A stretch of DNA of 64,000 bases from contig JAODTK010000100.1 in assembly GCA_026419785.1 (NCBI GenBank), forward strand, positions 434,001 to 498,000. Reading direction: 5' to 3'. Below, piece by piece: positions 2,398-64,000 of this stretch. The position numbers and the translations under genes are program-made. The stretch is from Sclerodactyla briareus. Its lineage: Eukaryota; Echinodermata; Holothuroidea; Dendrochirotida; Sclerodactylidae. The notes beneath the pieces are model-generated. The model worked only from the letters and a program-made list of their open reading frames with translations. It had not been told where the DNA came from and searched no databases. Each line of letters starts with the position of its first letter. Within the stretch, counting starts at the first letter, position 1.

Positions 2398-3430
2398 TGT
2401 GGGTCATTGTACTGATGTTGAGGTCATTGTACTGATGTTGTGGTCACCTAAGTGACTGAGAGGTGAGTCATTGTATGGTTATTGTCCAATGGTGAGGTGA
2501 CACATATGTGGGTCATTGTACTGATGTTGAGGTCACATGAGGGACTGAGGGGTGAGTCATTGTATGGTTATTGTCCAATGGTGAGGTGACACATATGTGG
2601 GTCATTGTACTGATGTGAGGTCACATGAGGGACTGAGGGGTGAGTCATTGTATGGTTATTGTCCAATGGTGAGGTGACTGACACTCATTTGGGACATTGT
2701 ACTGATAATGTGGTCACTTGAGTGACTGAGGGGTAGGTCACTGTAGGTAGGTTATGGGGCCAAATGGTGAAGTGACAGAAATGTGGATCATTGTACGGAT
2801 GGTTGTGGTCACCTAAGTGACTGAGATGTGAGTCATTGTATGGTTATTGTCCAACTGAGGGACTGAGGGGGTAAATCAGTGTAGAGTTATTGCCCAATGG
2901 CAAGGGACACATATGTGGGTCATTGTACTGATATTGTGGTCACATGAGTGACTGAGGGGTAAGTCATGTATGGTCATTGGTGAGGAGATGCACCACGTGG
3001 GTCATTGTACTGATATTGTGGTCACATGAGTGACTGAGGGGGAAGTCATAGCATGGTCATTGGTGAGGTGACACATATGTGGGTCATTGTACTGATGTTG
3101 TAGTCACTTGAGTGACTGAGGGGTGAGTCATTGTATGGTCATTGGCGAGGTGCCGCACATGTGGGTCATTGTACTGATATTGTGGTCACATGAGTGACTG
3201 AGGGGTAAGACAGTGTGGAGTTACTGCCCAATGGCAAGGTGAGACATGTGGGTCAGTTACTGATGTTGAGGGGTCAGTGTACTGATGTTGAGGGGTCAGT
3301 TATTGTAGGGCTATCATTCAATGGCAAGGTGATGCACAGGTGGTCATTGTTCTTATGTCGTGGTCACTTGAGGGATGAGGGGTGGGGTCAATGTGGAGTT
3401 ATTGTCTGATGGCGAGTGATGCACATGTGA
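2398..3430. repeat. 82-94 bp minisatellite
   Basis: The phrase GTGGGTCATTGTACTGAT (or close variants) recurs near 2,401, 2,510, 2,599, 2,691, 2,785, 2,917, 2,999, 3,081, 3,163 and 3,250. Each unit continues with TGGTCAC(A/T)TGAGTGACTGAGGGG, GAGTCATTGTATGGTTATTG and CCAATGGTGAGGTGACACATAT. Units of 82, 87, 89, 92 and 94 bp occur, with one partial duplication of 20 bp in the first unit. The array degrades after 3,300. Confidence 0.93.
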
Positions 3431-4852: not shown

Positions 4853-6062
4853 TCAGAACCGACTCTCTCTCATGGCTGAAATGTTCCTGAGTCCCTCTGA
4901 TTTGGTGAAGTCTATCGTGGCATAGGTGACTGGCTCTGAGCCTTTGTCCTCTCCAGAGGGCGCTCTAAATGGCGAGGAAGGATTCAGCGGAGAGCTAGAG
5001 TCTGACTGTGAGGGGGGTCTGCCTCCACGTCTATATAGTTCAGTTCATGCTTCTTCTGTGGGTTGCTGTTCACCGGCGAGTGGTGCAGTGTGAGGTTTGG
5101 TGTGAGGGAGCCCTTCGGGTGCACTGTGCCCTTCGTAGACTCGACGGACGACCGAGACAGTTCTTACCACTGGCCCCTCTCAGCTGTAGCTCCTCTAGAG
5201 AATGCTGTAACGAGTGACTGTTCACATTGCCACCCCCACCGTCACCGACCACGCCCTTTGGCGCAGGCCTGGTCACGGGAACTGTTGTGGAGCTGATCCG
5301 AGTACTCCCCTCCCCATAATTGAGGTCTACATTCATGAAGTCTCCCTCAAACATTCGCTCCTCCACCGGTAATCTTACCTTACTACAGGGTTCCCTTCCC
5401 GTTCCCATTCTCCTCCCGGCTTCCCTTTCTACCCTTCGATACAGATTTGTCCTTCTTCTTACCAAACTGTCCCTCATTCCCACCAAAAATTCATCTTGGC
5501 GTAATCTCCTTTCCCCCCTTCGTTTTGTTTCACTTGGATCTGAGGACCCCTCTGTCGCTTGCTCGAATCGTCTTTCGTTCCTCCCTGACCCCATTCGACA
5601 TGCACAGTGGTTTTGTCCCCCACGGCACACTGGCTGCATTTTTGGATTTGTAGGCCATGTTCATATAATCCGATTTGTCATCACCCTCCTCTGAGGGTTC
5701 CCCCCCTGGCCCCCCCCGGGGCCCTCCGGTCAGAGAAGATGGTCTTATGTGCTGTGACGGGGCTGAACTCAACATTGGCATACGAGTCAAACAGCCTCTC
5801 TGCATCGGGCTCTTTGAATTGTCCGTCTTTCTCCCCAGCAACTTCTGTACCAGCTGGGGCACTGATGGCACCACTGCCTGGGACAGATGGATTATCAGGG
5901 CTCCCCAGGGTGGGGGTCAGGACCAGGGCAGGGGGTTAGGTGGGGTGGTCTTCTTGGCTGATTTGCTGCCAGTCGGCACTGGAGGTGACATGTACATGTA
6001 GGGGGTGTTGTCAGACGGTGATATCGGAGGCTCAGACTGGGAAGGGGTCCGTTGCTTTGGCT
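4853..6062 (-). CDS. IRS1: IRS last exon: YMYM, YMNM, YIDV and C-terminal motif
   Basis: A textbook acceptor (TTTGTCTTTCCTGCAG) starts it. In order come PSDNTPYMYMSPP, LFDSYANVEFSP, KSDYMNMAYKSK, GGKGDYAKMNF, GDFMNVDLNYGEG, HELNYIDVEADPP and VTYATIDFTKSEGLR, then a stop after MRESRF. NYID(V/L) and the final TYA.I.F site correspond to the two C-terminal SHP2-binding tyrosines of IRS1. These pieces fall in all three frames, with about five to seven shifts in 1.2 kb, several at runs of G or C such as near 5,700-5,720. Each segment has clear coding character, so I favour sequencing indels. Length is as expected for a YxxM-rich tail exon. Confidence 0.85.
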
Positions 6063-9000
6063 GCAGGAAAGACAAAGAGAACAAGTCGAGAAGAGCCATC
6101 AGAGTTTTGACCGAACAACCATACTATGGAGAATCTGAAGAAGTATTGTTTTATAGAAGCATGAATTCTGGGAACTGACTCGCACGAATTCACAATTTCC
6201 ATGAGAAATAGGGGGTTTACATTCTCCTTGCTCTGATCAGATAAATATGGGTTCTTGCCACATACAGATCAGTTTAACATGTTCCTAATGTATTGATAGA
6301 GTGTATACATAGAGGGTGTTGTGCTTGCTGCCAAGAACCCCTATTCACAGTTAACCCCAGAGGGCGAGCGAATGTCTGAAGGGTTGAATGGATGACAAAA
6401 ATGGGCCAAAAACGTCCAACACGGATTGGTTGGGCCAGGGGTATACAGTGGGTGGATGATATGGTTCACAAGTTCACAGTGGCCCACCTGTTCTTTTCCC
6501 CAGCTGGGAATCGGGGGACTATGTGGGGAGGGGGAGGGGGGTGTTGCATGATGCCTCCAAAGGTTCCGAAAGGCCTAACCATACATATAAGTCATTACAG
6601 TGTTGGTCTTCACCTGAACTTGGTGCCATCATCATATATCCCGCTGCCAAGGGGTTGGATGGTGAGGGGGTCACACCATCATACGGTTTTTCGTGGCCCT
6701 CCCCGGGAGACAGGCGATTTAGGGGGGCTGCTGGTCCCTCCAATGGATCCAGAGAAGGATGATCGTGGGGGTGGCTGGTGGAGGAGGACATATCCATGTA
6801 GGAGTCATGACGTCACCTGTACCGGGAAAAAAAAGATGGAAGGAGAACTAAAATTTACTGCTCGATGACCAGACTGATTACTCTTACAGACGTCCAGTGA
6901 AGAACGCAGAGGGGAGGGGGAGCAGCTTCTTGACACCAATAAATTCTCAACACAGAACCAGCTGCTGTTTATTTCAGATGTTGCACAGCCATATGTCTTA
7001 GGAGGCCATAATGCATTTATTCGCCTCGAGAGGGTGAGGCTTTAAATAAGGGTGCACTTTCTATGGGTCCCAACCTAACTCCCCCCCCACCCCCCCCCCC
7101 CCCAGACAAATCTCTTGGTACACCAATGCAGACATCACAGGGGGTTAATACCTGATTGTTGCGGGAATGGACGGAAAAGTACCTAAATTTAGGTCATATT
7201 TACTTGACCATTGTACTTCAGGCTAAAACCAAAACAAGGCCCTTGCCTCAGAAGCTACTTCTAACAGGTATCATATTATCAGGCCTACTATATTTATTCA
7301 CTCATTGAGACATTGAGGCCATTCCTTAAAATTTGAAACTAACACAGGTTATCTGTACCGAAGAGCTCAACAAGAGTGCACAATATGGAAATCAGACTCA
7401 TTAAACCAACTCTCAGATTCCATGTTCAAATTTCCCAGGACCAAAACCACAAAGCATTGTGGAAACTTTGCTTAATCCATGCAGATTAGAGAATGGACTT
7501 AATTATGATCTACCCAATTAGTATGAGTATACTAGGTACCTGCTGTCCTGACCCATGATCCCTAATATTCCCCCACAAGTAATTATATCCCCGCAACACT
7601 TTCAAGTGTTCGGGGATATAATGATTCTATGTGTGAGCTGGTGTCTCCACCACTGCCTAAGGACTTCAGGAATTAGGGCAAAACTCTTCAAGCCTTCATC
7701 CGATTGATCTGAAATTCAGTACACATGTCCACCCTAGTGAAAACTTGGATGTGTGATGGAGGTCAAATGGACATAATTTAAACAAGGTCCAAAGGCAGGG
7801 ATAACCATCTGCGGTTTCGCGCCGGCACATGTATAATTGGTTTTGGAATTCCCGGGAGAGTACTACCTGTCACAATATGCCCGAATCTATAAAACTGATA
7901 TATAAATAACTGATGAGTTACATCCAATGGAATTGCCAGTTCCCCAGTGAGGAATATAGCTCAAGGCAAATGGTGTACGGTATGGCGATCGCAGTGAATC
8001 CTACAGTTTGTCAATAATCCAGTAAGGAACCTAAACAACCAGAAAAAAGCCAAAAGGCTTAGTGATTTTGAATGATCCTGACTTGATCAAAGCTATAAAG
8101 CATTGTCAAGATCACACTCGGATCTTTGTGTACCCATAATAGGGAACTCACATAACAAGTCTGAACAGCAGCATGCAAATAAGGTCTGTAGCCAAAATAT
8201 CAATTTTTCACAATATCCGCATTCCTCCAAAACTGGCTCCAGTCACACCAAGAATGATATTGTCCCTGTTTCTCCCATAGGAAGCGGCAGACCGAAGAAA
8301 TTAAAAACTGCTAGACCTCGCACTCGGATTCGAACAAGATTTTTTAGACTTGTGCTCAATTATGGGGCACCATATACAAGTATAGGCTGATCCTTCTTGG
8401 TGGGATCGACTTATCATGTTATTGAGCTTTCTTTCCCAAAATTTTGCAAATTATCAATTTTTCACGATTTCCCAATTTTTTTCCCAAATCCTGATGATTT
8501 TATGAAAAACAAGAACGTTATTGTAGCGCATACAAAATTCCAACCTGATTGGACCAGGCATTAGGGACTGATCGCGTTAACAAGATTTATACTTGACCTC
8601 TCCTGAGCTCAGATGATCTTTGACCTGACCCCAAAACAATAGGGATCATTGTAATCATTATGGGGACACCCTATACACTGTCATGACTGCATAGATTCCT
8701 CTGACTCGTCAAGGAATCAGAAAATTACATTAATAAAGGCTGATTATGGTTGCCCTTGATTTCCATGCCCAAAATGTGATTGAGTTCACACAAATGGACC
8801 AATCACCAGCCTCTTTAATGACCCAATGCTCATATACTTGTCGCTAACTCTAAACACCCATTGAATGGAAAGTAGATTCTTTCAGTGTGATACTAATGAT
8901 CTCAATCATGCAAAGCACAGACATCTCTAATAATGCAGACTTGCACCATTTGAGTGTTATAGAGAATGAACCACTTGCCAACTTTTTCAATGACTCAGCC

Positions 9001-12000
9001 AAATTCATGGGCTCCTAAGGTAGTTCTATACACGAACTGTAAAGATCTCCTGTGTATGTAAGATATATATATATATATATAGATATATATATATATATAG
9101 ATATATAATACCTTGGACCGGGGTATCAATCCCCCAACAAACGGCAAAACATTGCAGATATAGCACTGCATCATTTGCAAGTATATAGAGAATGGACCAC
9201 TCGCCAGTGTTTCTCAATGACTCTGCCACATTCATATACTTTGGAAGATAACTTAAACACTCACAGTGAAAGGACCCGAGGGTCATACCTTAACCCTTTC
9301 AAGTCACGAACAACATGCAGACTGATAGCTACTGCATCATTGCCAGTGAGAATGGACCACTCGCCAGTGTTTCTCAATGACTCTGCCACATTCATATACT
9401 TGTGAGCTAATTCCATACACCCACCATGAATGGAGTGTTCAGGTATCAAGTGTAAACCATGACCCTCATCTTGAAACAATAAAACAGCCCAAGCACTCTT
9501 GATGTAGACTCTCATCCACTGCGTCATTTGAAGGTGTATAGAGAGAAAGAACCACTTACTAGCTTTTAATGAGCCAGCCATGTTCATGTACTCATCGGCT
9601 TCAGCTGATTCCATACTCTCCTCTCTGATGGGGAGCTGGGTGTCTGGTGTCCTGCCCTTAGACCTGGGTCAAAGGTCACAAAGATGAAAAAATTAAAACA
9701 GAACCAACAAAAAAATGTCGCAAAACATGCCATGATAAAAAAAAGTTTTGGAAATCTTCGAGAATGTAACAGGGCATCCAGCAAAATAACGGAATGAGAG
9801 ATTCAATAATAGGGCCCATCAACGCTGGTCACATCAATTTTGATCACTTTGCATGTGAATAAATGGAGCAGTCTGCACTGGATGCGTTACGTTCCATCAT
9901 ATTCAATATGGTCAGAATTTTTTTGTCCGGATTGCTCAATGTCCTGTGTGGACAGGCCTTTAGAGAAAAAACTTTTACCAAGACTTGTTGAGAGACAAAA
10001 TTAATTCCCGGTCTGAATCGGCCCAAAAACAGTTTAATGTAGAATCCCAGCAATCCATTCTCGAGTACCTTTTGAGACTATTCATATGTCCGTTGTTGTA
10101 GTCGGAGCCAAAGACATAGTCGTCTTTGCTGTACCCATCAGTAGGAGAGTGCCCGGCTGGGCCCTGGGGAATGAACGATTCACAGGGAGGTTACCAGGGC
10201 TCTCGCTGCGAAAAAATGGAAAGGAAGCTGACTAACTTCCCTCATACTACATATTATCCACAAATTCAGGGCTATTGAAACTCCCATTGAACGTGTTCCC
10301 CACTGTGGTGATGAGATGATAATGTGTATGGTCAAGGTGCATAGGTCACTGGCAGTTTGACTCTGCACCAACAGTGTACAGAACAGTCTTGGAACTGCGT
10401 AGGTAACTACACATCCTACCAGCAACGAATCAACAAATTCTCTCCATTACTTATAAAGTAACATAGTGAATGGGATGAATAGAGTCAACGTTCAAAGAGT
10501 TCAAAAATAGGTTCTGATGATAGCGCTAGCGCCGTGTAGAGAATTCGCCTATACCCCCAAATGGTGGTAATCATGCGCAATTACAACTGTGACAATAACC
10601 ACTGTTTGGGTGTAATTTTCTCAGGTCACACAGTTCAAGATGACTATGGCAAATGAGTGGAAGTAAGCTCCAGGGACCATTGTGGACAGTATTATAACGT
10701 TAAATTGGAGTCGTCCCGCTCTAGCGCTAAAGCACGAAACAACACGCGGCTGGGCAGCCGGGGGAATTAGCAACAGTTTTATCGTTTAAGTTCACGGACA
10801 GATTAGCGCTCAAAGTTTGATACGCATCTAGTTATTATCATTCTCATGTGACCAACGATATAGGATTCGTGTAGTGCACAACATACATCACACCACGTTC
10901 CTTTGTTACTCCTACCCATGAGTTGCAGAATGACCATGAAGTGATCTGCGGGTGACCGACCACATTAGTGAAGAGACACCCAAGCTCTGAAATAACCTTC
11001 CAGTTGCTCTTCGTGTCACTCAAGATTCCCAAAAGTTCCAGAGTTCCAAGTTTAAGACTCTGTTGTTCAAGGAAGTATTTGACATTTGAGTGGTTTATGT
11101 TTATGTGAAGTGCCACTGAAACTGCATGTTTTAACAGCCCTATAAAAAATGTTAAAGGCCAATGGTATGTAAATCTGTCCGCACTTTAAGTGCTTTCTAT
11201 TTGTTACATAATGACAGCCTAACTCCAGACACATGTCATCCGAGTCGAAAGTACTGATAAGGCACAATCAGCTATTGCAAAATTTGCCTTGTGACATCAC
11301 GGGGGAAAGTCAATGTAAAAACATTGCATTTTAAATACTGTACTAAACAAACTATAGATGGGATCCGGATAAAAACCTACAGAATCATTAACAGAATATC
11401 AAAGAACCCCCCAATCTTCATCAATTTCCAAGTAAATGCCCTCCATTGTTTCCTGGTTATCATGCACGAAAATGCAGCATTATGTGTAGGGTCTATTGGC
11501 AACCGATGCATCGTTACCCCCGATGTGTCGGATTCCTAAACTTCTCAAAAGTAACTTGAAATATTCGAACAAAGAATGCTGGAACCTTCAAATATGGGTT
11601 GTAGGGTTAAAGGTACTCGTGTCACGTGCTAAGTTCAAAGACAAATCGTTACATGCCTTGGCCTTTTAAGGATTAGTATTATTATGTACAGTGTGACAAG
11701 CCCTTCAAGGGCCAAAAGTGGGAATGGAGGGGAGGTCCTGATTACAGCAGCTTACTAGTGGGTAATCGCAAGATGCCTCTGTCCGATGTTGTAATGGACT
11801 GGCTCTTGGGCCTTACACTTCTAGGTTACCAAGTTGGCAGCTAGGTTAAAGGACAACTGCAGGCTTGGATACAACAGAGATTGTAATAGTGGGAGAAAGG
11901 AAAAAACTATCTATAGGTCCAAACCCCATTTCAATACGATGTTCCTCCGTGGAGTTATTGGCCTTCAAAGTTTGGGCCATTAAGCAGAGAAATTGGGGGG

Positions 12001-27000: not shown

Positions 27001-30000
27001 TAATCTGTTGGAGATTGTTAGCATTACAGGCATCATCAAATTCAGGATTGAATTTGGTGTATTTCAGGCATAACATGCATCAGCATATTCAGGCTCTGGA
27101 ATCTATTGGGAATTTTAGGCATAAACAGGCCATTATTCCAATTTCAGGCTTGAATCTGTTGGAGATGGTCAGGAACTACAAGTATTCTTAGATCTGTTTG
27201 GAGTATTTTTTTCGGCATTGGCATAAAAGCCATTATCAAATTCGGATCAAATTCTTGGTTCTTAGCATAACATGCAATAGACAAAATTTCAGGCTTGAAT
27301 CTGTTCGGAGATGTCAAGATAACATGTATGTAAAATTCAGGCCTTGAATCTGTGCGGAGATTGTTAAAGCATAAATGTATTGTCAAATTCAGGCTGGAAT
27401 CTGTTTCAGAATTGTCAAGCATACTGTATTGTCAAATCAGGCTTGATCTGTTCAGAGATTGTTCAAGCATAACATTGTATTGTCAAATTCAGTCTTGAAT
27501 CGGTTCGGATTGTTTCCGCATAAAATGTATTGTCAAATTCTGGCTTGAATCTGTTTGGAGGATTTTGTAGGCATTACAGGCATCCAAATTTTTTTTTTTT
27601 TTTTTTTTCCCATATTCAGGCTTGAATCTGTTTGAAGATGTTTGGCATTCATTTGTTGGGCTCTGCCAACCCATCTGGTCGTCTTGATCCTCGAAGGAGC
27701 GTTGCCAGTATCTCTACAAAGAACGAAGAACCAAGGCGTAAAGGCATCACAATATTTAGGCTTGAATCTGTTTGGAGATGGTTAGGCATACAGGCAATCC
27801 TCATATTCATGGCTTGAAACGGTATTGAAGATGTTTTTAGCATATCAAATCAGGATTGAACTTTCGGAGATTTTCAAGCATAACAGTATGTCAAATCAGG
27901 CTTGAATCTTTCGGAGATTGTTCAAGCTAACATGTATTGTCCAAAATTCAGCTTGAATCTGTTCGGAGATTGTGTTTAGGCATTACAGGGCATATCAAAT
28001 TCAGGATTGAAGTTGGTTGATTTCAGGCATAAATGCCATCAGATATTCAGCTCTCTTGAATCTATTTGGAGAATTTTAGGCATAACAGGCTTATTCAAAT
28101 TCAGCTTGAATCTGTTTGGAGATTGTTCCGGCATACAAGTATCTTAGATCTGTTTGAGATTTTTTCAGGCATCAAAAGGCATTATCAAATTCAGGATAGT
28201 TCTTTTTTAGCATACATGCATTATTCAAATTCAGGCTTGAATCTGTTCGGAGAGATTGTTCAAGCATAACATGAATTGTCAAATTCAGGCTTGAATTTGC
28301 GGAGATGTTCAAGCATAACAGTATGTCAAATTCAGGCTGAATCTGTTCGGAGATTGTCAAGCATAACAGATTGTCCAAAATTCAGGCTGATGAATCTGTT
28401 CGGAGAGATTTTCCAAGCATAACATGATGTCAAATCATGGCTTGTGAATAGTTGTTCGGAGATTGTTCAAGCATAACATGTATTGTCAAATTAGGCTTGA
28501 ATCTGTTTTTGAGATTTTAGGATTACAGGCATCATCATATTCCAGGTTGTCTTTTTGAAGATTGTTTAGCATCATTTGTTGGGCTGCCAACCCATCCTGG
28601 TCGTCTTTGCTTCCTCCGAAGGAGCGTTGGCCCAGTAACTCTACCAAGACCAAGAAACCAAGGCGTAACATGCATCACCATATTTAGGCTTGAATCTGTT
28701 TGGAGATTGTTATGCATTACAGCGCATCATATTCAGGCTTGAAGTTTGAAGATTGTTTAGCATCATCAATTCAGGCCTTTGAATCGTTCGGAGTATTGTT
28801 CAGCATAACATTTTTTTTGTTTTTTTGTGGAAAATTTTGGGGGGGGGGGTTGTGTTTTGTTTGGTCAACTTCAGGCTTGAATCTGTTCGGATCTTGTTCA
28901 AGTACTAACAGTTTGTCAAATTCAGCTTGAATCTGTTCGGAGCTTGTTAGGCATTACAGGCTCATCAATTCAGGATTGAATTTTGTGATTTAGGCATAAC
29001 ATTCATCAGCATATTCGGCTTGAATCTATTTGGAGAATTTTAGGCAATAACTGCTTATTCAAATTCAGCTTGCATCTTTTGGAAAGAGTGTCAGGCACGA
29101 CAAGTATCTTAGATCTGTGTGGAGATTTTTTTCAGGCATAAAAGGCATTACAAATTCAGGATCAATCTTTGCTCTAGCATAACTGCATTATCAATTCAAG
29201 GCTTGATCTGTTCGGAGATTGTTCAAGCATAACATGTATTGTCAAATTCAGGCTTGAAATCTGTGTGGAGATTGTTTCAACAATACTGTATGTCAATTCA
29301 TGCTTGAATCTGTCAAGATTGTTCAAGCATAACATGTATTGTCAAATTCAGGCTTGAATCTGTTCAGAGATTTTCAAGCATACATGTATGTCAATTCACA
29401 GGCTTGATCTGTTCGGAGATTGTTCAAGCATAACATTTATTTTCAATTCTGGCTTGAATCTGTTTGGAGATTGTTAGGCATTACAGGCAATCATCTATTC
29501 ATGCTTGAACTAGTTTGAAGATTGTTTAGCATCATTTGTTGGGCCTGCCAACCCCATGCCTGGTCGTCTTGCCTTCTCGAGGAGCGTTGCCAGTATCTCT
29601 AACCAATACCCAGAACGAATGCGTAACAGGCATCAACCATATTTAGGCTTGATCTGTTTGGAGATTGTTAGGCATTACAGGCATCATCATATTCAGGCTT
29701 GAATCTGTTTGAAGATTGTTTAGCCTCATCAACTTCAGGCTTGAATCTGTTCGGTGGAGATTGTTCAAGCATAACATGTATTGTCAACTTCGGCTGAATC
29801 TGTTGGAGAATTGTCGGCTTACGCATCATCAAATTCAGGATTGAATTTGGTGATTCAGGCATAACATGCATCAGCATATTCAGGCTGAATGCTATTGGGA
29901 ATTTTAGCAAACAGCATTATTCAAATCGGCTTGCATCTGTTTGAGATTGTCAGGCACTACAAGTACTTAGGTCTGTTTTGAGATTTTTTTTCAGGCACAA

Positions 30001-33000
30001 AAGGCATTAAACAATTCAGGATCGATTTTGTTTCTACATAACATGCAATATATCAAATCCTGCTTTGAATTCTGTTCGGAGATTGTTCAAGCATAACATG
30101 TATTGTCAAAATTCCAGGCTTGAATCTGTGCGGAGATTGTTAAAGCATAAATGTATTGTCAAATTCAGGCTGGAATCTGTTTCAGAATTGTCAAGCATAC
30201 TGTATTGTCAAATCAGGCTTGATCTGTTCAGAGATTGTTCAAGCATAACATTGTATTGTCAAATTCAGTCTTGAATCGGTTCGGATTGTTTCCGCATAAA
30301 ATGTATTGTCAAATTCTGGCTTGAATCTGTTTGGAGGATTTTGTAGGCATTACAGGCATCCAAATTTTTTTTTTTTTTTTTTTTCCCATATTCAGGCTTG
30401 AATCTGTTTGAAGATGTTTGGCATTCATTTGTTGGGCTCTGCCAACCCATCTGGTCGTCTTGATCCTCGAAGGAGCGTTGCCAGTATCTCTACAAAGAAC
30501 GAAGAACCAAGGCGTAAAGGCATCACAATATTTAGGCTTGAATCTGTTTGGAGATGGTTAGGCATACAGGCAATCCTCATATTCATGGCTTGAAACGGTA
30601 TTGAAGATGTTTTTAGCATATCAAATCAGGATTGAACTTTCGGAGATTTTCAAGCATAACAGTATGTCAAATCAGGCTTGAATCTTTCGGAGATTGTTCA
30701 AGCTAACATGTATTGTCCAAAATTCAGCTTGAATCTGTTCGGAGATTGTGTTTAGGCATTACAGGGCATATCAAATTCAGGATTGAAGTTGGTTGATTTC
30801 AGGCATAAATGCCATCAGATATTCAGCTCTCTTGAATCTATTTGGAGAATTTTAGGCATAACAGGCTTATTCAAATTCAGCTTGAATCTGTTTGGAGATT
30901 GTTCCGGCATACAAGTATCTTAGATCTGTTTGAGATTTTTTCAGGCATCAAAAGGCATTATCAAATTCAGGATAGTTCTTTTTTAGCATACATGCATTAT
31001 TCAAATTCAGGCTTGAATCTGTTCGGAGAGATTGTTCAAGCATAACATGAATTGTCAAATTCAGGCTTGAATTTGCGGAGATGTTCAAGCATAACAGTAT
31101 GTCAAATTCAGGCTGAATCTGTTCGGAGATTGTCAAGCATAACAGATTGTCCAAAATTCAGGCTGATGAATCTGTTCGGAGAGATTTTCCAAGCATAACA
31201 TGATGTCAAATCATGGCTTGTGAATAGTTGTTCGGAGATTGTTCAAGCATAACATGTATTGTCAAATTAGGCTTGAATCTGTTTTTGAGATTTTAGGATT
31301 ACAGGCATCATCATATTCAGGCTTGAATCTGTTTTGAAGGATGTTTAGGCATCATTTGTTGGGGTGCCAACTCCATCCTGGGTATCTTGCTACCGAAGGA
31401 GCGTTGGCCAGTATCTCTACCAAGAAACCAAGGCGTAACAGGCATGGACCATATTTAGGCGTGAATCTGTTTGAAGATGTTTAGAACATCAAATTTAAGG
31501 CTGATTGAATCTGTTTGGAGGTGTCAGGCGTTCAGATCATTCAAATTCAGGCTTGAATATGTTTGAGAGATGTTAGGCATAAGAGGAATATCATATTTAG
31601 GCTTGAATCTGTCGGAGTTTTTGTTTTTCAGCAGAACAGGCATCATGTGGCAGTAGCGAACGGGCGAAAAAGCGATCAATCACAGTAAGAGAATCACCGG
31701 TGGTAAAGTTTGATACCGAGACTGGTATCAAATATCATCACAAGACAGGTCAACCGTCAAGGAATAGTTCCAATAGACATGATTGTGTAATATCATTTGA
31801 TCAATACCGAGCAGAATGTGCAGATTCGATGAGGACAATAACACTATTCTGGCTCTAATACAGCATCATCCCAAACGAAAAGAAAGTCAAAAAGTTAGTG
31901 GATTCCTGTTTTAAACAGGTTCCGGCAGTTCTAAGCAAGCAATTTCTTTTCTGACCAAAATAAAGGATTTCCAAGACCTCCTCTATGAAATCACGACACA
32001 GAGTGATCAATGAGTGGAATGTCTTCCTGAAAATATTTTTTAGTTTTAAGAGTGTGAATGCGTTCAAGAAACAGTCTTGATTTAGTTTGCAGGGCAATCA
32101 AGGCGAATTATTTATGTGTGGTTCATTTTTCTTTCCTGGGATGTTTGGCTCCGGGGTCATTATGAGGATTATGTCCTTCCTAACCCTTATTCACTAAACT
32201 AAATAAACAGAATTCTCAACGAAAACAACCAATAAAAAAGAAAAAGCAACACAGAAACAGCCATTGAAAAAGTGACAATCACCATCAATCAAATGCCAGA
32301 CTCAACAACCTTTTCACGGAATTTCATTACCGTATCCAGGTTTTCCATGACCGCAAGATGAAACCCTGTGTTAATACTTTGACCTCTCTTACCTCCTGAC
32401 CATTGACCTGATACCGGACATTAGGGCTCATCCATACTCCGTATGGGGAATCAGAATAAATTTACATCAGTTGTCATACTGAAAGAAAAACTGTGACATA
32501 CACCATGTGCACTCGCTTGGTTCAATACCAAGAAATTATTTGTGGTTTTAAAAAGCTGAAAATGATGAAGAAAGGAAAGCCAAAAATGTAATTAATTGAG
32601 ACCAAATCTGTCACAGAATTCATTCAAAATGAACCCACTAAATATCATTAGGCTTACCTCCCATCTGTATTGATGCCCGTGTGCTACTGATGATGGGCAT
32701 CCACGTCACCTGAATTTTAATAAGCAGAATTTGTTGGATTTGTCAAACGAACCCATGCAGACGATATGTTGAGCAATATACGACCATGGTAATATACCGA
32801 AGAGCAAGAGCCACCTTTATTCCTAGAAACGGCTCCCTGATAATGCCTGCTTCAGCAAGCTACCACCTCCGGACAGAACGGCATAATTGTAACTAAATAC
32901 ACGCATGGGTATCGTCATCACCAGCTGGCCCGCCTGTCGGGTTCCACCGCTCGACCCTGTGAGGTTTCTTCAATGACATATACAAGATCCTCTCATCTGT

Positions 33001-36000
33001 AGAGCCCTCCTGGTGCCAGTTGTATATTAGGTGATGCAAAAGGGAAATATACCCATGGCTTCCCTTTTTTCGAACCTTTCGTACAATTGAACGCACATTA
33101 TAGTGAGTGTTAGTTTATACAGTGGTTCAAAAAAGCATCTCTTCAATGATGGAATAGATAATTCACGTAGATTCCAGGGTGAGCTATTGCTTATATGGAT
33201 TGAAAATAACCTATAGACGAGTGACATGCGGTATCTAAGATAATTTTTTTCCCACCTATATTTCATTCCATGTTTCCAATATAACAACCAAATGGTTATG
33301 TCTGTTTTAAACATAATGTTACTAATGGAGTCCCGTCCTACTTTTTCCTCTTGATTACAAGTTTTTCTGACATGTACATCAAAAATTATGGAACTGCCCT
33401 TGGAGCGAAAATGAACTCCGCCTCCCCATCTCCCAGCATTTCCCATCTTATTAGAGTGGCTGTGACATTTTTCCCTTTCAGGAGATAATCAAGATTTACT
33501 GAGAGAAAGTAAGGATCAATACAGAAGCACCAGATACCTTCATTGAGATAACCCCCTTATCAGCGAGTTACTCTGGTAATTTAATATTATTATATCGGGA
33601 AATTGAATATTCGGAGGAAGTAAGACCTTGATAAAAGTGGAGATGAAATTACCTATGATCTCGATACGAGAAGACGTGCACAGCTTGTGAGCCAATCTGA
33701 CATGGGTAACACCTTAATGGACTGTGATCCGTTTCCTTACTAGATCTCACTAATGTAGTCATTGGTCCTTGGAACATATGTGTCACCAAATGAAGTTGGT
33801 CATCACAGATCGGTCTTGGGGACCAGACTAGGAAAGTTCAGTCCTTCTATACAGCACACGATACATTTGTATCAGACCTTTGCCAACAAGATTGTAATAT
33901 GCCTGCACATGTAATACTTTTGATTGTTCCTGGCTTGTCGCAAGAGTGGTCAACACAGCAATGTAGAAACATAATATCAAGGGAACCTGGGACCTTTTAA
34001 GAAGGAGAATGCTGGCATACAAAAATAGTCATACAGCCAAGGATCATGGAAGAATAAAGTCTCTTTCGTGATATTCTGCATTCAATTCGAGTTTTAGCAA
34101 CTTCGTTTAATCATATGACATTGCTTAAAATCAATGGACAAATTGTCTTCAATCTATCCAGCCGGCAGGAGTGAAATTGAACATTTTTCCAATCGAGGAG
34201 GCAATATATGATGTTATCACTCCCGCGGTGTGTATTCTAGTTGACAAATTGAGTCCTGTAGTGAGAATCTCACTAGAACAACTTTTTTTTTATCCCCCTT
34301 GCTACTGATATCAAGATCAGAGCAGCCACATCCAGAAAATTATAGATACTGTTTTCAATGGAAATATCCATGCTCTAATTGAAGTGCACCTGGGTTCCGA
34401 CTAACTACTGGGGTGTCCTCCTAAAACACAGTGAAACTCGGACTGAGGTCTATGACAGTTTTGTCAGTTTTTTTGTCGTCTTCTATGGTTAGCCAAACCA
34501 CAGATATAGAGCCATGATTACATCAGATGGTGGTGTTCTTTCATATGATCGCCAAGGTGCCTTTTTGCACCAGTCCTTCTTGTTGATATGGTGCCTATTG
34601 AACAAATGCACATCACATTATAATGCATACAACCTGTTTCACGAATCAATGTTCCAATATAGATGCTGGGGTCTTTGCATTCTCGCAGCTAAGGCACTCC
34701 TATTTCTTATGGTATACTTGCTGAGCACAGAGGATAGAACCTATTTTCAAGGCTCAGCAAGGGTGCAAACCTGGATACTGCACCTTATTGTCCGCTGCCA
34801 ATCCGTCAACAGGTACACTGGTTGAGGGATGTGGGTGCTATGGGGTGGGTGGGGCTCCTTCGGCGGTCGGTACCTTAATGTAGGGGTGGGGATATTCACA
34901 CGTATATAGCGAACTTAGCGGCTTGAGTCTCCGGTCATTGTGTGCGTGCTCGTTTCCAATGGCCCTCAGCTGAAGCAACTGGAGCGGAAGGCAACAGATC
35001 CCATTTTCAAATTCTTTGGTATGAGCCGACCAGGACCAGGATGAGAACCCCGTTCTCTCGGGTGGAGGCCGACCTCTACAAGGGTACAGTCTCACCCCAT
35101 ATTTGTTCTGTAATCAGGGAACTTACTTGAGTGTGGCCTCATGTATATTGTGGGCGATGACCGAGTCCTCCACCTGCATCCACATCTCCCAGATCGGTGA
35201 TGGCTGCCGGCCCACCTCCCTAGCAGAAACAATCTGTTGGCCACTACCTCCCACCACCGACAGCTGACCGAAAGAAAATAAATGTCCGGTTTTACATCAA
35301 GAATTTGTGGCGCATGGGTAAGACTAGCATAACTCAATTGCACACCATTTTCACACTGTATATATGCTACTTTGGGCCAAGGTACATGTGCAGTTGGTTA
35401 TCCTCTGAAGTTAAATCCCTATCCTTTTGTTGCTACGTACAAGACATAATACAACCACTGGGGTTCCCAACTTCATTTGAGATTTGCACCACCTCTGATT
35501 GAATCAATACAATACTGCAAGTAGAACATGTGACCCACCTCATATGTGGCTGGGTCACATATAAGCTGCTCTTCAATGCTTATGGCAGTTCCCCCGGAAC
35601 CTCACCTCCGCTCGCTCAACTCTGCTGCACATCACATTACTTACATGTTTCATCATGGTCTCCCCACCCCCGAGTCCACCCTTGCGCTCCAGCCCCGCCC
35701 AAATTTCGAAAAGTGTTTGCACTCCTGCTACAGCTAGGGGCCACCAATCAGCCCAAATCTGTGATCGGGAGTAAACTTCATTCAGAAGGCCTGTCAAGGG
35801 AGGACAGTTGCCACGTATGACAGTGTTATAGAGCAAAGAAGATATAGGCTGTTAAAAAAGGATAAATTCATGCATAGACACCCACTTTTGACAGCTATTG
35901 GGGGCAAGGGGAGGCATTTTCCTGTTTACCCCCTCACACGCCTTGACTGTCTGGCATTCCCTACACCGACTGTCTCCTTCGTTGCAGATCGATATTCTAA

Positions 36001-39000
36001 TTTGTAAGCACTCCTGCGACTTGATGTATATACATTTACAAAACCTAGCTGACAGGAGCGACTTTCTCACTCATGGATAATGGATGAAAAATGAGCAAGG
36101 CCCTCAAAATTATTCATAATCGATAAAAAGGTTTCCTGAAAACCTCACCAAATTTCAGACAAGAAATGTTGACTGGCTTGACAAGACTTGGTTACATGTC
36201 TCTGATGTCTGCCTCCAATGCGAGTACCTGAGAATCCAAGCCCTCAAAACAGGAACTTCATCACAGTCAGGTTATTATCCCTTAATATTTGGAAGCCTGG
36301 TGCTCCTGATGGATTGGTTGAATTTATTAGATTTCTGTTCAATCATTCAGCACCACATCGCCAAAGATTGATCTCATGAATATTCATGACGATCAACAGA
36401 ATTTTTCTGGAAATTTTAATTATTCCAGTAAGCATTACACCGCATGTGTCAGCCTTGACGAGATGCAGAGAAGCAGTGTCTGTCTGTTCTCTGATCAGTG
36501 CCGAATCAAGTCCTCTCAGTTTAAAACCTGGTTACAACATGCATCGTCCTGAATATATAACTGAGTGCTACAGGGATGAATGATACAGTAGCTACGTACC
36601 ACAAGAGTATGCTCTCAAAATATTCTCGATCAATAGTGACATTCCCAGGAAATTCTGGTAGAAGGACATGGTGTCTAACTTTCGTCTCAGGAATTATTCA
36701 TAGGTGAGTGCTATGAATGGTTCTAGGACATTGACTGATTCAGCATTAGATAGGATAGTCAATGGCACATAGACTGTGCATCTACAGTATACTGTACATC
36801 CCAGGGCATAATTTATCTGGATTCAGGGCATAATTTATCTGGATTCGCATAGCAAAAAAAAACTCCAAAAAACGTCAAATGCTAATCAAAATTCCTTTTT
36901 TGTTTAGGGAAAACTCCATACACAAAGTAATGGCTATATTGATGGCATGCTATAAATTCAGCAAGATGTGCCAATCAAATTCAAGATACTAAATTAGCCC
37001 TCATCCACATGTATACCCTACTGTATCTACTAGTATGTATACTATACATCTACTAGTATACTGTGCATCTACAAGTATACTGTACCTTTACAAGGTCTAT
37101 TGCCGTCCTACTACTATATATACTATACATCTACCGTACATCTACAAGCATAATGTACAACTACAAGTATCCTATACATCTATAAGCATAATGTACATTA
37201 CAAGTATACTATACATCCAGAACTATAATATCCTGAAAAATATTCAGGGCAGGCAGGGATGTTTCTGAACATTTCAGTCAGAAGAGCACATGAAACCCTG
37301 AGGGGCTTCTACACAATGTCACAAAGTAATGCCAGACAAGACCTCTAAACTGGTAGCATATTTCTATCATTCAAATTTTCTGTGAGTATTCGGTCCACGT
37401 GATGAGGGGTTAATTTGTTGAATATAGATATTCGGCACCACATCTGCAAGCATGTGATCAAAAATATTCAAGTACTTCTGATCAGGACATGAAAGAATCT
37501 GCCTTTGAATATGGTAGTTGTGAAATACCCGGTTTGAAGATTCCTTTCAGGCTGCAATTTCCTCTTTTTAGAGGCTGGGTTTCACACATTTTCCTAATTA
37601 TCCCCTGTTGTGGAGATTGCACCAGAATTAACGACTACACAGAACACTTACAGGGAACTTCAAGTCACCATTGTCTGCATTCATTCTGACCAGGTTGATG
37701 GTCCCTGCCATGAGGCAGAGCCGGTAGTTACCGCTCAGATTCTGGCTCGAGCCCAGGCCTTTGGACTTCACAGTGACCTGCCAGATGTGTTCTGCAAAAA
37801 AAACAGATAACAACAAATATTCCATGTCAAGTTCAGTATTCACTGACATTAATTAAAAAAAAAGGTTTTCAGGTGCAAACTGGATCTCATACATCAGGCT
37901 AGATTTAAAATATTTTAGAACTCCCAACCTGACTGATGCAGAAGACCCATATTACTGGTCCAATCCAAGTTTACACACCCAGTATACCAATTGTAATAAA
38001 TACTCTATCGTACAGTTATTCACATTCAGAGAATACCTCCATCAGAATCGCCTTACTACACTCTTTGAAATGATTTTAGGCCATATCCTGTGAAATGAAG
38101 GACATTGTATTGAGGGGGGTTAAGACTAACACAATTTCATCTTAACACTGACCTCAATTTGCACCAGGCAGGAGGAGAGACCTGTTACTGTCTTTTGTTT
38201 TGCTTTGGAATACCAAATTATTCTATTTGTACCGATACGACTATCTTGCCGATTCTCACAGGTTGCAAATTTAGTGTTGCTATAGATACAAGATGGGAGG
38301 TTTGAACAACTTGAGGTTATTTGGCGACATCACAACTCATCTGTATAACTAATGCATGATTGGTAATTGAACAATGTTAAATAAATCACACAATCCCAAA
38401 ATGCTGATTGTTTTTCATGGAGCAATAAATAGTCACCAATGCAAATGATGTGATATTATGTGAGGAATTATTTTGAATAATACTTTTTCTCTCAAAGTTA
38501 GTTTTCATCTTTTAATGAGGACAGATGGTTCAAAGATACATATTTTGTCACCATTTCAATTTCAAACAATTATTGCAATGACCAGAACTCTTGTTGTCGA
38601 TTTTAGGTTTATAGCCAAGTCATACCAAAACATCAAGAGCAATGAAGATGGCACATTTCCATTTGATTGTTCAAGTCCTAATTTAAACGAAGATTTCATG
38701 ACAATCCTTCTGAAAGTATGCAGAGTTCAGGAGCACTTGACATAAAAATCAATTCTGACATTGGCCAAGGTTTGCCAAAGGCTCCAAACAGAACCTCTGC
38801 TTTAGAATGAATAATTTCACGGTCAATATCCAGAGGCCATTCCACATCCCTGGTTGAGTAGGCGTAATTAATGTTGAGCTGCAATCGCTGTATCTGTTCA
38901 CAATTTGGAGGCAAAAAGGAGAGGATTAATGCAATCTAATGCTTGCTTCTCGATTAAGTGGAAGTATATTTTTACTGTAAGCTAGATATCAAGTTTCAAA

Positions 39001-57632: not shown

Positions 57633-57879
57633 TGGTAGGGGACCAGAAGGGCATGAGGCACCAAACTCAGGTCATTGGGTGGTGGTAGGGGTGACACTAG
57701 GCACAGTGTGTGGCATAGATGGGGGCCTAGGTTCTGACAATAATATAACTGCTAAAGAGAAAATATATAAAAGCAATAGCAAAGATTGCATCTGGACCCA
57801 ATCATTAAAACAATTCTCGAAAAGGGCCAGACAGAGAGAACTGAGACTGCACTCGAGCATTGTCGTATGCGATTTTCAG

Positions 57880-58110
57880 ACATGAACCCATTTCTTCTTT
57901 CTGCAAAATATACAGACAATATCGAGATTGGTACAAAGGAGGGCATTGAAAATTATTCCTGGCTTCACACCTGACTATGAAGGTTTGAAGAGATAGGTTT
58001 AATTTAGTAGCAGGATGTCGTGGCTGGGTAGATCTATTGAAAGTGTGCACTATATGCAGGATTGATAAAAACTTCCTCTCGTCCGTTGTTTCTAGTTTAG
58101 CAGAGTCGTC
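57880..58110 (+). mobile_element. Possible 3'-end fragment of a non-LTR reverse transcriptase
   Basis: One plus frame reads LVQRRALKIIPGFTPDYEG, LKR, which has the shape of the C-terminal RT segment of LINEs (VQKRALRII..G..YE..L..L.L). The frame then breaks and later frames do not continue convincingly. Two long open frames run on the opposite strand over 57,805-58,603, so this call is weak. Confidence 0.35.
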
Positions 58111-58917
58111 AGAGATACCTTTCAAACGGCTAAAAACTAAGGACATAGGCTGGAGTTGTACAATACTGCCCCAAAACTGAATACCAGTAAGTTTTTCCAA
58201 TGCAGTCCTTCTTGGAGAGGTAGTGTCTACAGCAGCTTGTTGTCCTACAACAAGCGCAAGGATGGGCAAGGATATAACAATATTGCAGGTCGCCATCGCA
58301 AAACAAAAATTCAAATATTTCAGAGATTGGCCGCAGGGAGTTACAACACCCAAGTTGGTTACACCTAACCCTAGCTGAACACTTCAAACAACTTTGGAAT
58401 CCTGAACTGCATATAACTATAAGCATTGACCCTGTGCATACAACTAAGTGTTTGTTTGCTCTCTCATTACTTTTAATGACACAAACAAGTCCTTGAAATG
58501 CAGTTCTGAGGTCTAAACACCTATTATTTTTAAATGTCACCAAGAGTATAGTACAAATCACCCTATCACACAGTCCAAGTATGATACGAACCGTACCATT
58601 CACTGTTCAGTGCGTGTTTTATTATGTTTAATCATCCTGGCTCCTTGGTGGAACTGAGGGACTGGTGGTGCCTTTCTGGTCTGCCTGGAGAAAATTAAAG
58701 CTCATTCAAGCCTTCAAATATTCGAGAAATAAGCATCAATGACATTAAAATGAATGCCATCGTTCGATGCTCATCTGGGGGGGCGGAGAACTTCCAGCAG
58801 TCACAACTAGACATGTGTAGTGCGGGTAACCGCCACATTTTAATATCCCCCTTTCCGAGCATCATTGGAGAGTTATGAAGCACCCATCACGACATCCATT
58901 CTGATCATAAACCAAGA
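58111..58917. other. Unassigned stretch with long minus-strand open frames
   Basis: Two overlapping minus-strand frames (182 codons at 57,805-58,353 and 157 codons at 58,130-58,603) are longer than most chance frames in this window. Residues such as VDTTSPRRTALEKLTG and GISDDSAKLETTDERKF look protein-like, but I recognise no domain, splice site or start context. Confidence 0.3.
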
Positions 58918-62700: not shown

Positions 62701-64000
62701 TCCGACGATCGTCTGTTCCATATTAGCGATTATTTTCAATACGACTCTGCAAGAAGGTATTGTTCCGGATGATTGGAGAGAGCAAATGTTTCTCCTATTT
62801 TCAAGAAGGTAAACGGTCTCTTCCTTGTAATTACAGGCCAGTCAGTCCTACTAGTGTTGTGTCTGCAAGGTAATGGAATCAATCATTCGGATCATGGGTT
62901 TATATTTCAATGATCATAGTCCTTCATTAGGGATTCTCCAGCACGGTTTAGGAAAAATCGTTTCGTGTTTTGAACTAATCTCTTGGAATTTATGAAGATG
63001 TATATATGTTCTGTCTGGTTGACAACGGCATGCTGTTCATATAATTTTCCTGGACTTTTCAGAAAGCTTTGACACAGGTTCCTCATCACAGCGTCTCTTC
63101 TCAAGTTGGGAGAGCTTTGGCAGTGAGGGGATGCCCTAAGTGGATCCGTGAGTGGTTTTCATATAGGGAAAACGAGTTGTCATTAATGGGCGGCATCTTC
63201 TTGGCAAAGGTCACTAGTGATGTTCCCCAGGGGTCGGTTCTCGGGCCGTTACTCTTTTTGGCGTATAGTGGACGATCTTGAAGGGTCTGTTCATTCCATG
63301 GTTAAGAAGTTCGCACACGATACAAGTGTATCGGGGTTGTCGGTTCGAATGATGATTCTGAAATTGTTCAAAGTGATCTTGATATAATTTTCCAAATGGT
63401 CCCTTCCGAACTGGCAAATGTTTCCTCAATTCGACAAGTTGCAAAGTTTATGCACGTGGTTTTCACAATCGCAATCTTCCTTCAAGTTATATGGTCCAAA
63501 ATATTCCAGAGGTGGATTTCATAAAAAGATCTTGGTTTTTTTTTAATTCTTCTTTGAAACCTTCTAAGCCGTGTGCCGAAGCTGCTAGAAGAGGTAATTG
63601 TATTCTTGGCTTGATTAGACGTCACTTCAGTTTCCTGATAATGATATTGTTGTCAGGCTGTTTAAGCAAACTGGTGGACTGCAACTGGAATATGCTGTAC
63701 AAGTGTGGAATCCCAACTTTGCAAAAGACAAGCAGGTTATTGAAAACATTTAGGTATGGCAACTAGAATGATTGACTGTCTGAAAATTTATCCTACGATG
63801 AAAGATTAAAGGCGTCTCGGTCTAACTACCAATTTGGGGAAGGGCTAAAGGGGCGAATTCGCGGTGACTTGATCCAGGTTTTCAAAATTGTCCATGGACT
63901 CAATGTTCTGCACATAGAGGCCACTGTCTCAAGCGTTCAGGCAAGCGCGCAGATTGGACTTCGTAAAATATTCTCTCGAGAGAGTGATCATGAGTGGAAT
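59750..64000 (+). mobile_element. CR1-type non-LTR retrotransposon (LINE), frame-broken, runs off the window
   Basis: A two-ORF LINE. The first ORF region (about 60.2-61.0 kb) contains GDSLVGRVTGNL, LERTRVCLPGAWVEDISD and VVVEIGT, which fits the SGNH-hydrolase-like (esterase) ORF1 known from CR1 elements. The second ORF has an endonuclease motif GDFNYPDISLSEW near 61,746, then RT motifs: APGPDGVYP near 62,655, SPIFKK and CNYRPVSPTSVV near 62,790-62,860, LDFS..FDT and VPHHS near 63,050-63,085, CPKWIREWFSYR near 63,135, VPQGSVLGPLLFL near 63,225, LKPSK(P)CAEAARRGNCILGLIRR near 63,560. The end carries DLIQVFKIVHGLN near 63,870 and ESDHEWN at the edge. Motifs are spread over all three frames with shifts every 100-200 bp, so it is inactive or read with errors. 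The 5' boundary is approximate; the 3' end lies outside. Confidence 0.88.

Follow-up and report, generated by a model that had tools for sequence, protein, structure and literature searches.

The stretch analysed here, referred to below as the window, comprises 64,000 nucleotides (nt) of the holothuroid Sclerodactyla briareus (contig JAODTK010000100.1, positions 434,001 to 498,000). Its minus strand carries a gene which, on the basis of sequence matches, is an insulin receptor substrate (IRS). A short exon of this gene encodes a YMNM docking motif and is trailed, in the next intron, by four diverged copies of itself that include intron flank and reach down to about 8750. The parent exon is called c0 and the copies c1 to c4. 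The coordinates and the strand given for this array in the original prediction were right, and the motif codons could be located in the five units, starting at 9593 in c0 (EYMNM), 9401 in c1 (KYMNV), 9241 in c2 (KYMNV), 9014 in c3 (EPMNL) and 8839 in c4 (KYMSI). The array is composed as follows, each E-value being that of the leave-one-out search described below.

9560-9663, minus strand: c0, parent docking exon, EYMNMAGSLKA, 104 nt, entry phase 2, exit phase 1
9300-9425, minus strand: c1, first copy (KYMNVAESLRNT), GC donor after 9365; E 4.6e-22
9140-9265, minus strand: c2, second copy (KYMNV), sharing an identical 54-nt core with c1, repeat family D4, GC donor after 9205; E 1.1e-16
9063-9107, no strand: AT dinucleotide run between c2 and c3 (Tandem Repeats Finder)
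8915-9040, minus strand: c3, third copy (EPMNL), without the tyrosine codon, GC donor after 8979; E 9.3e-18
8750-8862, minus strand: c4, fourth copy (KYMSI), GT donor without the +5 G after 8807; E 1.4e-6

Homology of the five units

The relatedness of the units was assessed with nhmmer, by building a profile from four units and seeking the fifth in the window. Each of the five was recovered in this way, c0 being found by the four copies alone with an E-value of 3.4e-15, and the runner-up place in the window had an E-value of 0.6 to 2.2 over the five runs. This complete recovery, together with the lack of any comparable place, argues that the array is not due to chance. When the region 8750-9680 was compared with the window by blastn (E up to 1), the matches were likewise confined to the array, with a best between-copy E-value of 2e-23 and a value of 4.5e-7 between c0 and c2. 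The docking exon and its four diverged copies, intron flank included, are confirmed. Neither nhmmer nor blastn detected a unit outside the array within the 64-kb window; the idea that the copies belong to a dispersed repeat, put forward earlier as the observation that would undo the proposal, is excluded for these 64 kb only.

The homologous span takes in the 3' portion of the exon, the donor and an adjoining piece of the downstream intron, and the evidence for the array depends on exon and intron flank taken together, the 104-nt exon being a weak query by itself. Indeed, the c0 exon used alone as a blastn query retrieved no copy in the window at E up to 0.5, and c1 alone (E 0.037) at E up to 10. 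Extended by 70 nt of intron, it matched c3 (3.6e-9) and c2 (7e-8), and c1 and c4 were not recovered. In comparisons of the downstream intron blocks, the match of c0 to c2 and to c3 exceeded all 1000 shuffles, and its match to c1 (p 0.105) and to c4 (p 0.97) showed no significant excess.

Upstream, across the acceptor, homology to c0 was gauged by an anchored test in which 120 stretches taken at random from the gene served as reference. It gave p 0.025 for c1, 0.041 for c2, 0.504 for c3 and 0.529 for c4, these four tests being uncorrected, which is suggestive for c1 and c2. A local shuffle test, also uncorrected, gave 0.087, 0.306, 0.047 and 0.890 respectively. The upstream flanks of c1 and c4 resemble each other in both tests (p 0.008, the floor value of the anchored test, and p 0.002).

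Tandem Repeats Finder did not list the five-unit array, reporting there only the AT run. Seven exon pieces of the gene were also searched by blastn in the window (E up to 0.5) and no second copy better than E 0.086 appeared, in a test that is weak for diverged copies since those of c0 were missed as well. An origin of the units from an RNA element or a short interspersed element (SINE) was considered and rejected, the window yielding no Rfam match at the gathering threshold and no ARAGORN tRNA.

The host gene

The identity of the gene was examined by tblastn, using about the first half of human IRS1 as query. The exons concerned, and those of the tail that surround the array, are listed below.

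47366-47545, minus strand: IRS PH-domain exon (tblastn E 6e-6)
37673-37792, minus strand: IRS PTB-domain exon, first part (tblastn E 1.6e-8)
35126-35218, minus strand: IRS PTB-domain exon, second part (tblastn E 4.8e-4)
10069-10163, minus strand: upstream tail exon a (DDYVFGSDYNNGHMNSLK), exit phase 2, from sequence and splice scores; weak donor AAG/GTACTC, 89th percentile
6614-6816, minus strand: downstream tail exon c (SYMDMS, GYMMMAPSSG)
4855-6060, minus strand: last tail region (PYMYMS, SYANVEF, DYMNMAY, NYIDVEAD, TYATIDF), several reading frames

The PH exon and the two PTB pieces are collinear in gene order, and the PH open reading frame (ORF) matches the IRS-1 structure 1qqg in the PDB (E 1e-4). 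A Pfam search of eight stop-free short ORF pieces, at E up to 0.1, gave no family match for the PH and PTB frames. The tail occupies 10.2-4.8 kb, spread over several exons, and its minus-strand frames contain five YxxM motifs (EYMNM, SYMDM, GYMMM, PYMYM and DYMNM), with NYIDVEAD and TYATIDF as tail motifs near the C-terminus. These motifs presumably resemble those of vertebrate IRS tails. The PH, PTB and multi-YxxM tail matches agree with the gene assignment made in the original prediction.

Splice sites were scored with an approximate weight matrix, percentiles being relative to sites of the window. On this scale the c0 acceptor (TTTGTGACCTTTGACCCAG/G) stands at the 98.1th percentile and its donor (CTA/GTAAGT) at the 97.6th among GT sites. 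The entry phase 2 of c0 agrees with the exit phase of exon a, as read by eye. In similar by-eye readings, the phase 1 entry of exon c fits only with a one-base assembly error near the start of that exon, and a comparable one-base discrepancy is seen at exon d.

Further along the tail, between 6123 and 4853 on the minus strand, IRS-like motifs are spread over about 1.2 kb in seven consecutive pieces, the frame changing six times. Five of the six frame-change intervals hold a homopolymer run of at least 5, and the remaining one (5163-5070) has none of at least 4; these intervals are mostly long, so that their homopolymer content is only a hint of assembly indels. The frame changes are likely to be such indels, a damaged gene being possible. 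Claims of single-base insertion or loss in the copies are consequently uncertain, and base substitutions, such as the change of GT to GC or the missing +3 methionine, are safer ground. If uncorrected indels are suggested by the broken frames of the tail, it may be asked whether the array itself is partly an artefact of assembly. This is highly improbable: aligned intron-flank positions differ between copies by 18 to 41 percent, which is not what duplicated reads would give.

Docking motifs, splice sites and frames of the copies

The SH2 domains of PI3K p85 prefer a methionine at position +3 of the docking tyrosine, and GRB2-type docking corresponds to Y-x-N. The methionine at +3 is missing in all four copies, none of which therefore carries YxxM. 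The asparagine at +2 is kept in c1, c2 and c3; with the tyrosine of c3 gone, Y-x-N is left only in c1 and c2. YMNM itself is described as an SH2 docking motif in CD28 in PMC5852078.

The donors read CTG/GCGAGT in c1 and c2, TTG/GCAAGT in c3 and CTG/GTGATT in c4. The alteration of the donor GT announced for the copies thus applies to c1-c3, where GT has become GC, a rare but usable form, and not to c4, which keeps GT and loses the +5 G. The description of the last copy as DNA-only was not sustained either, since the core of c4 can be read in the motif frame without meeting a stop. The same is true of c1.

When the highest-scoring acceptor in the 100 nt concerned is taken for each copy, the values are 5.3 for c1, 3.1 for c2, 5.2 for c3 and 1.3 for c4, to be compared with 8.3 to 12.9 for the four scored exons of the gene. 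In-frame stops occur within 102 nt upstream of the motif at 51, 60 and 90 nt in c2, at 3 nt in c3, and at 45, 69 and 90 nt in c4, and there is none in this interval in c1. Relative to the motif frame the exit phase is 0 in both c3 and c4, as opposed to 1 in c0, so that neither copy could supply the phase 1 exit of c0.

These data bear directly on whether c0 and its copies form an array of mutually exclusive exons. Such a swap requires entry in phase 2 and exit in phase 1. The sole candidates within 100 nt upstream have acceptors at the 12th percentile for c1 and the 58th for c2, and the exit phase of c3 and c4 is wrong. No set of phase 2-1 exons that could be exchanged for one another and had serviceable splice sites was found, and this arrangement is rejected as very improbable on phase and acceptors.

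Divergence among the copies

Summed over the six pairs formed by c1-c4, mismatches affect 50 of 208 exon positions and 57 of 184 intron positions (p 0.17). No clear codon-position pattern emerged among the copies, and the signal of constraint is not significant in a stretch that is short and offers low power. The pattern of exon and intron divergence is compatible with neutral decay, at this low power.

A 54-nt core is identical in c1 and c2, within an alignment of 131 columns and 108 matches; none of 20,000 column shuffles reached such a run. Gene conversion or a younger duplication would account for it without function, and constraint acting on both c1 and c2 is made less likely by the upstream stops of c2.

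Origin and fate of the copies

The preferred interpretation, to which a probability of about 0.8 is given, is a tandem duplication of the exon into the following intron, followed by decay of the copies as non-coding sequence while c0 stayed intact. The unit would be the YMNM docking exon of the IRS gene with flanking intron, tandemly duplicated several times into the next intron; the copies would since have decayed as intron sequence and the parent would have remained intact. They would accordingly derive from the exon, not the reverse, and are probably unused in mRNA. Decay is favored because exon and intron parts diverge alike, the acceptors are weaker than the gene's own, c2-c4 have upstream stops and the exit phase of c3 and c4 does not fit, which is in line with the decayed appearance noted at first. 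Tandem repeats are abundant in the window (31 overlapping rows in Tandem Repeats Finder), and with introns so rich in them local duplication is a common background here.

Several observations nevertheless weigh against this interpretation. In five of the six copy pairs the exon part has diverged less than the intron part, not significantly in a short stretch of low power, and c0 differs from c1 and c2 at 4 first, 2 second and 5 third positions of codons, which leans slightly towards a coding pattern. The core shared by c1 and c2 begins at the motif and spans the donor, and constraint could also account for it. GC, to which GT has changed, is itself a type of donor known to function, and the remaining positions of the donor are good in c1-c3 (at least the 99th percentile among GC sites). 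No stop interrupts the frame of c0 across the intron as far as the donor of c1, which it reaches with the phase unchanged (ORF 9668-9264), and a phase 1-1 cassette around c1 would fit in frame after c0. Finally, the direction of copying is unpolarised. This last point, like the wealth of repeats in the introns, would also suit an intronic minisatellite, one of whose copies would have been taken up as an exon. That scenario is very unlikely: the splice sites of c0 are good and its motif is one that IRS tails typically carry, features that a recruited repeat would hardly supply, and no copies lie elsewhere in the window.

The case of c1 deserves separate consideration. The following exon can be drawn around it.

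9365-9469, minus strand: hypothetical in-frame cassette exon of 105 nt around c1, phase 1-1, GC donor; acceptor at the 92nd percentile of AG sites (score 5.29)

Read-through had been raised in the original prediction, and the c0-to-c1 frame is indeed open. A given frame is open in 2.8 percent of 20,000 random 195-nt stretches of presumed intron, which may include undetected exons, and an in-frame acceptor arises by chance in 3.4 percent of 20,000 random anchors; the two features overlap and are not independent, and c1 was picked post hoc from four copies. On these grounds c1 might be a real, probably low-level alternative exon, either as the cassette (9469-9365) or as a long form of c0 using the GC donor of c1, adding KYMNV with Y-x-N and without Y-x-x-M. 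Its in-frame acceptor and open frame speak for this, as do the 102 nt upstream free of in-frame stops, unlike those of c2-c4. Genes with alternative splicing are reported to be enriched in GC donors (PMC2490688), and of 101 human genes open to checking, 22 are reported to transcribe a pseudogenic exon (PMC2718932). Even so, such an exon is unlikely. It was singled out after the fact, its acceptor falls well short of the 8.3 to 12.9 of the gene's own exons, the residues gained by read-through would contain a hydrophobic, tryptophan-containing stretch, and constraint is not significant.

A fuller version, in which c1 is spliced through its GC donor as an optional in-frame exon, adds a docking site of GRB2 type (Y-x-N) rather than PI3K type (Y-x-x-M) to the IRS protein and so shifts the balance of the two insulin-signalling branches, with c2 held similar by gene conversion, is quite unlikely. 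For the array as a whole, a role in tuning insulin signalling by gain of docking sites, as originally envisaged, is not upheld: no copy has the PI3K motif, exon and intron diverge alike, and only c1 is frame-compatible, with a middling acceptor.

Relation to known systems

Duplication and decay of an exon, the interpretation preferred here, make the array an event of known kind. Morais and Harrison 2009 (PMC2718932) reported decaying exon copies near their parents in four mammals, where 0.4-1.0 percent of genes are concerned. Those pseudogenic exons are likewise single-exon copies by the parent gene, and they are disabled and decaying, as the present copies may be as well; they come from four mammals, whereas here four copies lie in one IRS intron and three have GC donors. 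The tandem exon duplications of PMC9013439 are also intronic, exon-like sequences that arose by tandem copying next to the original exon, while the present array is known from DNA alone and its frames are mostly incompatible. The GC donor sites described in PMC2490688 share with c1-c3 a GC within an otherwise good consensus, the donors here being predicted ones. Duplicated and mutually exclusive exons are treated in PMC5740500 and PMC2592719. Among the titles listed in searches of an open-access library, none dealt with an exon array in IRS, and no paper there combined GC-AG introns with exon duplication and alternative splicing.

Short docking motifs that sit on a small exon of their own can be multiplied through exon duplication. 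The five-unit IRS series, with one intact and four diverged members, offers a concrete case in which to ask whether such duplications rewire insulin signalling or rot, and the present evidence favors rot.

Other features of the window

A block of tandem repeats of about 50 nt is present twice (27288-28507 and 30065-31333), some 2.78 kb apart. Both occurrences share their consensus units, and they seem to reflect a segmental duplication within an intron of the IRS gene. Long tandem arrays with units of 86 nt and 82-89 nt lie at 264-878 and 2402-3302, beyond the 3' end of the gene. At 63045-63278, on the plus strand, a weak match to the Pfam family RVT_1 (reverse transcriptase; E 0.0021, below the cut-off) is perhaps a retroelement remnant. 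On the minus strand, an ORF of 192 codons at 57808-58383 has a sub-threshold Pfam match to the SID-1 RNA channel (E 0.0065), which is probably due to chance.
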